Shown: piece by piece, positions 3,080 to 4,504 of the stretch
How positions within the stretch are numbered: position 1 is the stretch's first letter
Layout of the letters: each line of letters begins with the position of its first letter
Made by a program: the position numbers and the translations under genes
Assembly (NCBI RefSeq): GCF_900120005.1
Contig: NZ_LT635448.1
Location: 124,001 to 188,000, forward strand
Source of the DNA: Holdemania sp. Marseille-P2844
Lineage (GTDB): Bacteria; Bacillota_I; Bacilli_A; Erysipelotrichales; Erysipelotrichaceae
DNA length: 64,000 bases
Direction of reading: 5' to 3'
The notes under the pieces: model-generated
What the model saw: the letters and a program-made list of their open reading frames with translations, nothing else
Told to the model about the DNA's origin: nothing
Database searches by the model: none

Positions 3080-4504
3080 ATGGCGAAGTTTCCGGAAACC
3101 TTTCTGTGGGGCGGCGCCAGCGCGGCAGTCCAGATGGAGGGCGGCTGGCAGGAAGGCGGCAAAGGCGTTAATGTCGCTGATATCCAGATCTGCCGGGTTC
3201 ACGACGCGCATGGCGGCAACGTCAATTATACACGGCAATCCTTGACGGAACGGGTGGCGGATGTTTTCTCCGATCACCCGGTTCATCATTATCCCAAGCA
3301 TGAGGCGGTTGATTTCTATCATCGCTATCCGGAATACATTGAGCTGATGAAGCAGGCGGGTTTTAAGGCCTTCCGCATGAGCATCAGCTGGGCGCGCATT
3401 TTCCCTAATGGTGACGACGCACAGCCTAATGCGGCGGGCATTGCCTATTATCGCCAGGTTTTTGAAGCCTTGCATGAGGCCGGGATCACGCCGATTGTCA
3501 CGCTGTCGCACTACGATATGCCGCTGGCGATCGTCCAGCATCATCAGGGCTGGTATGGCCGTGAGACGATCGAAATGTATGTGAATTATGCCCGGACCTG
3601 CTTTGAACAGTTCCACGATTTAGTCCCGTACTGGATCGCTGTCAACCAGATCAATCTGATCTTCGGCGAATCATTCAGCTCGTTAGGCATGATCATGGAT
3701 GAATACGAGGACTTCACGGCAGCGAAGTATCAGGCGGTTCATCACGAATTTGTGGCAAACGCGCTGTTAGTCCGGGCAGCGAAGGCGATTGATCCGCAGA
3801 TCCAGATCGGCGTCATGCTTGCCGATCAGATGACTTATCCGCTCAACAGCGATCCGAAAGCTTGCGAGCAGGCGTTAGAGGCGAACCGGATGAAGGATTA
3901 TTTCTATTCCGACGTGCAGCTGCGCGGGGAATATCCGGGATATGCCAAGCGTTATTTTAAGGAACATCACATTACAATTCGGATGGAGCCGGGTGATGCG
4001 GAGCTGATCAAGGAAAACACGATGGATTTCCTGGCGGTGGCATATTATTATTCACACTGCGTCGATGCTTCCGGCAAGAAGGTGGCCAATCCGTTTACGA
4101 AAGCAACGCAATGGGGGTGGACGATTGATCCGACTGGACTGTATATCGCGATGAGCTCCTATTGGGATCGTTATCATGTTCCGATGATGATTGCGGAAAA
4201 CGGTATCGGCGTGGAAGAAACGCTGGACAGCGAAGGTCAGATTCATGACGATTACCGCATTGCCTATCATCACGAGCATATCGCGCAGATGCGGAAACTG
4301 ATAGAGGATGAAGTGGAATTGTTTGCTTATACGCTGTGGTCGCCGTTCGATATCGTCAGCGGCAACAGCTGCGAGATGGAAAAACGCTACGGCCTGATTT
4401 ATGTCGATGTGGACAATAATGGTCAGGGTACGCGCAAGCTGGTGAAAAAAGACAGCTATGCCTGGTATCGGCATGTCATCGAAACGGACGGTGCAGAGTT
4501 ATGA
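3080..4504 (+). CDS. GH1 6-phospho-glycosidase with acid/base Glu replaced by Gln
   Basis: 474 residues, full GH1 length. The nucleophile motif IAENGIG is intact (Glu373). C-terminal [12 protein letters not shown] has the Lys and Tyr that bind the substrate 6-phosphate in 6-phospho-beta-glucosidases. The normal acid/base motif (T/S)FNE reads AVNQ: codon CAG at 3647-3649 gives Gln190. The other GH1 in this window has LTFNE at the same place. In plant myrosinases the same Glu-to-Gln change suits thioglucosides with good leaving groups. The enzyme is cytosolic and acts on what the upstream PTS imports. Its natural substrate may therefore be an activated or S-linked glucoside (inference). Confidence 0.9.

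Follow-up and report, generated by a model that had tools for sequence, protein, structure and literature searches.

The window analysed here, a stretch of 64,000 nucleotides from Holdemania sp. Marseille-P2844, holds a PTS operon whose GH1 gene encodes a Gln (Gln190) where the enzymes it most resembles carry their catalytic acid/base Glu. The question raised by this locus is whether such a gene is an artefact, encodes a dead protein or encodes a working enzyme and, if the enzyme works, which substrates it would cleave and which group would take over from the missing residue. The features discussed below are collected in Table 1.

Table 1. Features of the operon, of its GH1 enzyme and of the GH1 paralogue, in window coordinates
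Feature	Position	Strand	Basis
Divergent PTS-controlled regulator, cut by window edge	3..1010	-	Homologue comparison
PTS IIB, Lac/Cel family	1170..1508	+	Domain/family models
PTS IIC, Lac/Cel family	1501..2730	+	Domain/family models
PTS IIA, Lac/Cel family	2727..3077	+	Domain/family models
GH1 6-phospho-glycosidase-like enzyme (474 aa), Gln at acid/base position	3080..4504	+	Pfam, curated models, AF2 model, fold search
Gln190 (CAG), acid/base position	3647..3649	+	Translation, alignment; Gln in 64/64 and 30/30 clade members
Glu197, beta4-alpha4 loop (+1 region), Gln190+7, position of Sinapis myrosinase Arg194	3668..3670	+	Alignment; typical of Gln clade
Asp249, end of beta5	3824..3826	+	Clade comparison; Gln clade only
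Tyr324, +1 subsite position, mostly Met in Glu clade	4049..4051	+	Alignment to SmBgl Met314, PMC3605045
Glu373, catalytic nucleophile	4196..4198	+	Alignment; invariant in Gln and Glu clades
Lys435-Arg-Tyr437, 6-phosphate binding	4382..4390	+	Alignment with PMC3605045
Alpha/beta-hydrolase lipoprotein, overlaps GH1 stop	4501..5451	+	Domain model; in Holdemania only
GH1 paralogue P0002 with normal Glu, separate beta-glucoside PTS cluster	17982..19466	+	Alignment, tree

The active site of the window enzyme

The product of the gene was assigned to GH1 by Pfam (PF00232, 4e-109), and its top-scoring curated models were those of 6-phospho-beta-glucosidases; the best NCBIfam, PRK09852, scored 492 bits, below its cut-off of 623, and the Glu paralogue P0002 likewise fell under its own curated cut-off. 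An AF2 model built on a 25-sequence alignment (pLDDT 93.8) has the (beta/alpha)8 fold of GH1, and a fold search with this model returned 6wgd as the best match (Z 59.3, rmsd 1.4), followed by BglA, SmBgl, LpPbg1 and BglA-2. These 6-phospho-beta-glucosidases (6wgd, BglA 2xhy, SmBgl 3pn8, LpPbg1 3qom and BglA-2 4ipl) are about 40-46% identical to the window enzyme, with which they share fold, length, nucleophile, -1 subsite, 6-phosphate site and PTS context. When the sequences were aligned, Gln190, in the context YWIAVNQIN, fell in the column of the catalytic acid/base, Glu180 in LpPbg1 and Glu175 in 6wgd, and Glu occupies this column in all the 6-phospho-beta-glucosidase structures that the PDB search listed. 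The nucleophile and -1 residues listed for LpPbg1, namely Gln22, His134, Asn179, Glu375 and Trp423 (PMC3605045), correspond to Gln18, His144, Asn189, Glu373 and Trp420, with Glu373 in the ENG motif after beta7 as is expected of GH1, and the phosphate ligands Lys438/Tyr440 correspond to Lys435/Tyr437 in a KRYG loop. A different Glu that might occupy the acid/base column was ruled out by both the alignment and the model, which place Asn189-Gln190 directly behind beta4 (residues 184-188). The sequence-only reading of this stretch, which had described a PTS-linked 6-phospho-glycosidase intact but for a Gln at the position of the acid/base Glu and had named such a second Glu as one observation that would overturn it, therefore holds on this point. 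The NEP-like motif that carries the Glu after beta4 in GH1 is replaced by NQI throughout the clade described below and, because Gln190 takes the place of the acid/base Glu while the Lys/Tyr 6-phosphate site is present, we file the enzyme as predicted to work like a 6-phospho-beta-glucosidase (EC 3.2.1.86) rather than as a certain member of that class.

The paralogue at 17982 does carry the normal Glu in the alignment, as had been claimed for it. It belongs to a second PTS beta-glucoside cluster (15120-20292) composed of a CAT_RBD/PRD antiterminator, IIBC, IIA, the Glu-type GH1 and a HAD-like hydrolase, and an IS110-family transposase (8399-9607) lies between the two sugar clusters. Elsewhere the window encodes a TAT-signal protein with a 4Fe-4S ferredoxin domain and a flavodoxin-like N-terminal part (6683-7567), and a fumarate-reductase-like, TAT-signal FAD_binding_2 flavoprotein (11971-13800) whose gene is oriented divergently to that of a LysR-type regulator (13783-14850).

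Extent, origin and context of the Gln clade

The Gln is not a peculiarity of the window operon but the property of a large clade, in which it was read in 94 sequences (64, then 30 more) with no exception in the sampled members. Members were sampled across the family, orders and classes, first by pattern and then by profile; because the NQxN pattern favours Gln, the profile search was added and the residue was read directly in all fetched matches, high-scoring and low-scoring alike. Pattern matches in G021 and G131 (L054, L055 and copies) were set aside as chance or repeats, and those in G117 and G096/G172 (L040, L050, L051) as not GH1 either. Members come from Erysipelotrichaceae, Lactobacillales (at least thirty of 246 genomes), Listeria, Paenibacillaceae (Paenibacillus, Saccharibacillus), Coriobacteriia and Lachnospirales; the sources include MAGs, and misassigned contigs are in principle possible in the records from Lachnospiraceae and Limicola. 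In the Holdemania genome itself, Gln is found at this position in four of about 19 GH1 genes, and tandem blocks of divergent GH1 genes are seen there at G000:C11:349911-352706 and 371056-375247. Wherever the residue was read, matches scoring more than about 705 bits against the Gln-clade profile were all Gln, with no reversal; below this score Gln and Glu mix, with a few Gln at 640-698 bits and Glu up to 704. Because several Lactobacillales and Paenibacillus GH1 sequences above 695 bits carry Glu, membership of the clade cannot be read from the profile score alone. A literature search of open-access texts found no published description of these enzymes as a clade.

Three trees, with 48 rows (100/100 support), 104 rows and 143 rows (75 of them Gln and 68 Glu), each show the Glu-to-Gln replacement as one change without reversal, in a paralogue-rich family whose deep branches are weak outside the Gln node. 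Several independent origins are thus unsupported by any of the three trees, and the replacement apparently happened once, in one monophyletic, old clade. Two deep Gln-type members, L131 (G394) and L192 (G1213), have a beta4-alpha4 loop one residue shorter (NQINLTRVGLSS), with no loop acid and with Asp249 present.

Purifying selection on the gene is strong, with dN/dS of 0.028 between the window gene and its counterpart in H. filiformis (L001, 99% protein identity to the window genome), 0.013 between two Listeria Gln alleles, and 0.013-0.034 overall. Because the residue is invariant in 64/64 and again in 30/30 clade sequences and selection is this strong, the Gln190 observation is real and above chance, and a sequencing or assembly error or a decaying gene is ruled out. 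Of the 64 Gln genes, 58 have a same-strand PTS gene no more than 2.6 kb away, and most of the other six are either close to the end of a contig or locus or the second gene of a tandem pair; this linkage, together with the low dN/dS, indicates that Gln-clade genes are maintained. The usual order is a divergent regulator with HTH, Mga, PRD and EIIA_2 domains, the same domains found in the full-length H. filiformis homologue of the regulator truncated here, followed by IIB, IIC, IIA and GH1. In Paenibacillus tritici and Saccharibacillus deserti a Glc-type IIBCA stands behind the Gln GH1 instead of the Lac/Cel PTS, and the tie to phosphorylated substrates therefore outlasted a change of PTS family. 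Directly upstream of the P. tritici gene (L005, 4536-4973) lies a DMT/YdcZ-like exporter gene, possibly for an aglycone. The lipoprotein hydrolase that had been proposed as a partner of the window enzyme is present in only two loci, both from Holdemania, and absent from the conserved operon, and was dropped as a functional partner on these grounds.

It could be argued that the protein has no catalytic activity and instead binds or senses a sugar phosphate to control the PTS operon, since Gln mutants at this position are normally crippled and the PDB contains trapped forms of this kind (E170Q Gan1D and E163Q). Gln18, Trp104, His144, Asn189, Tyr323, Glu373 and Trp420, however, are invariant in 64/64 Gln members, and Lys435/Tyr437 are kept in each of the 63 with residues at these positions; the equivalent of the phosphate-site Ser432 is Asn429 in the window protein and Ser in 50 of the 64. 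Because the nucleophile and its partner residues do not vary, we consider a dead sensor very unlikely. The Gln enzyme is, moreover, the sole glycosidase of the operon in most loci (L083 and L081 have a Glu-type GH1 nearby too), four such genes occur in one genome, and the PRD/EIIA_2 regulator already supplies regulation. The inactive protein offered as an alternative by the sequence-only reading is improbable for the same reasons, given also the purifying selection on the gene.

A remodelled +1 subsite and the putative mechanism

The columns that best separate the Gln from the Glu clade are 190 and its surrounding residues, 281, 197, 324, 249, 202, 245 and 193. The equivalent of LpPbg1 Asn183, a residue that contacts the aglycone sugar, is position 193, which holds Leu in 56 of the 64 Gln proteins; the stretch equivalent to LpPbg1 Arg267 holds Glu/Gln or a gap; and position 324, which a mapping made by eye equates with SmBgl Met314, a +1 or entrance residue, is mostly Tyr (roles from PMC3605045, in which the beta4-alpha4 loop is also part of the +1 subsite). 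Compared with the GH1 6-phospho-beta-glucosidases listed above, the window enzyme thus has these three positions replaced, in addition to Gln190, and has extra carboxylates at 197 and 249. Read as a pattern rather than a statistic, because the sequences are related, a carboxylate is present both at 196-199 and at 249 in 33 of the 64 Gln proteins, in the loop only in 24 and as Asp249 only in seven, while all 30 further sequences have one at 196-199 or 249; among the Glu proteins, 47 of 60 have neither and 13 have an acid in the loop, and Asp249 is found in 40/64 Gln vs 0/60 Glu proteins. As judged from these alignments, the Gln clade has a rebuilt +1 subsite.

Gln can hold the leaving-group region in place but can act neither as proton donor nor as proton acceptor. 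Retaining glycosidases with an E-to-Q mutation still undergo glycosylation by substrates with activated leaving groups, and their deglycosylation is slow unless an external nucleophile or base is supplied. The reading that we prefer, to which we give a probability of roughly 0.45, i.e. somewhat less than an even chance, is that of a subfamily of 6-phospho-glycosidases for glycosides that need little acid help, with another group acting as base. The neighbouring PTS would import a sugar conjugate and phosphorylate it at C6, Lys435/Tyr437 would hold the 6-phosphate, and Glu373 would attack the anomeric carbon, with a glycosyl-enzyme as the normal intermediate. As Gln has no proton to offer the departing aglycone, this aglycone is probably one that leaves easily in the natural substrates (an aryl, enolic, acyl or thio group, or one activated in another way), and because glucose-6-phosphate must be released fast enough to feed glycolysis, water is probably activated by a group other than residue 190. 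Candidate bases are the clade-specific +1 carboxylates, in the loop around Glu197 and at Asp249; the latter may point away, since residue 250, and not 249, aligns with myrosinase Arg259.

Such carboxylates could also have taken over the whole task. That the GH1 lineage moved its acid/base, or at least the general base, to Glu197 and/or Asp249 and in so doing acquired a new substrate class seems doubtful to us, and that Glu197 (or Asp249) performs both proton donation and base catalysis on ordinary O-glycosides seems unlikely. The loop carboxylate is mostly Glu197 and no Gln sequence lacks both acids, although neither Glu197 nor Asp249 is universal. To our knowledge, no acid/base has migrated along the beta4-alpha4 loop in GH1. 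Relocation would be helped by the place of Glu197, which aligns with myrosinase Arg194 and lies in the beta4-alpha4 loop, a part of the +1 subsite (PMC3605045).

Alternatively, an acceptor other than water might resolve the glycosyl-enzyme, as in a transglycosidase or a phosphorolytic enzyme. Loss of the general base should in fact slow hydrolysis and favour strong nucleophiles, and the +1 site is clade-specific; a catabolic PTS operon, however, would be expected to need the release of glucose-6-phosphate, and a conserved acceptor-handling gene is absent from the Gln-locus neighbourhoods examined, which leaves this alternative with little probability.

Myrosinases, Listeria and the meaning of the substitution

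The substitution had been likened to that of plant myrosinases, and from this likeness a route for glucosinolates had been drawn. S-glycosides need no acid catalysis, and a bacterial 6-phospho-thioglucosidase could in principle act as QE-type myrosinases do, pairing Gln with an external base, for example ascorbate; we regard such an enzyme as quite unlikely here. The likeness itself is borne out by alignment, as the classical, QE-type myrosinases of plants (1myr/1e4m) are GH1 enzymes with a Gln at the acid/base position (Gln187 in 1myr), an Asn before it and a Glu nucleophile (PMC6691170). Unlike them, the window enzyme is bacterial and PTS-linked and has a 6-phosphate site. It also differs at Arg194 and Arg259 of Sinapis myrosinase, which we take to be the contacts for sulfate and ascorbate and which by an ungapped count correspond to Glu197, of opposite charge, and Gln250. 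EE-type myrosinases cleave glucosinolates too, Gln being the mark of the QE-type (PMC6691170).

A bacterial parallel argues in the same direction. In the CfPttS/CfPbgS system of Companilactobacillus farciminis, PTS import is likewise coupled to a GH1 6-phospho-glycosidase, there with an S-glucoside as substrate, although the PTS is of the single-chain beta-glucoside type, and CfPbgS, which acts on sinigrin-6-phosphate, is reported to be 48-50% identical to E. coli BglA and AscB (PMC8660893). Both of these have Glu at the acid/base position in the sequences that we read, so that Gln would not be needed for sinigrin-6-phosphate chemistry, the placement of CfPbgS among Glu enzymes following from this reported identity and not from its own sequence. 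The sequence comparisons thus lend a glucosinolate role no positive support; neutral S-glycosides, or activated glucosides of other kinds, may still be among the substrates. A natural GH1 with the same acid/base Gln is also known from rice, where Os4bglu14 and Os9bglu33 have no known function (PMC1781453); being plant enzymes encoded by isolated genes, they differ from the window enzyme in having neither a PTS nor a phosphate site.

A Gln-clade member was found in Listeria monocytogenes, in the plasmid-collection records L196 and L197, in both with NQIN, Glu197 and Asp249 and in the order IIB, IIC, IIA, GH1, PRD regulator and Vga(G). The PLSDB 'plasmid' records L196-L198 resemble pieces of chromosome, with the qox operon and PTS loci, and one is 2.9 Mb long. 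Because this order matches the naming of lmo0914 as IIB, lmo0915 as IIC and lmo0916 as IIA (PMC9927151), we infer that the Listeria enzyme is lmo0917. The lmo0914-lmo0917 operon, for which induction in soil extract, within host cells or in the mouse has been reported, has been treated as a normal PTS operon for cellobiose or lactose that includes a beta-glucosidase (PMC3464598, PMC2679221, PMC12616503), and no mention of the missing Glu was found in the open-access texts on it.

Many genes, one of them in L. monocytogenes and four in a single gut genome, are annotated as ordinary 6-phospho-beta-glucosidases without the residue that underlies the annotation. If the Gln enzymes are active, a natural lineage outside plants has dispensed with, or moved, the acid/base of the textbook retaining mechanism, and these enzymes would mark a new class of PTS-imported glycosides. 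Should the acid/base indeed have moved, a rebuilt mechanism would be present in gut bacteria, lactobacilli and Listeria.
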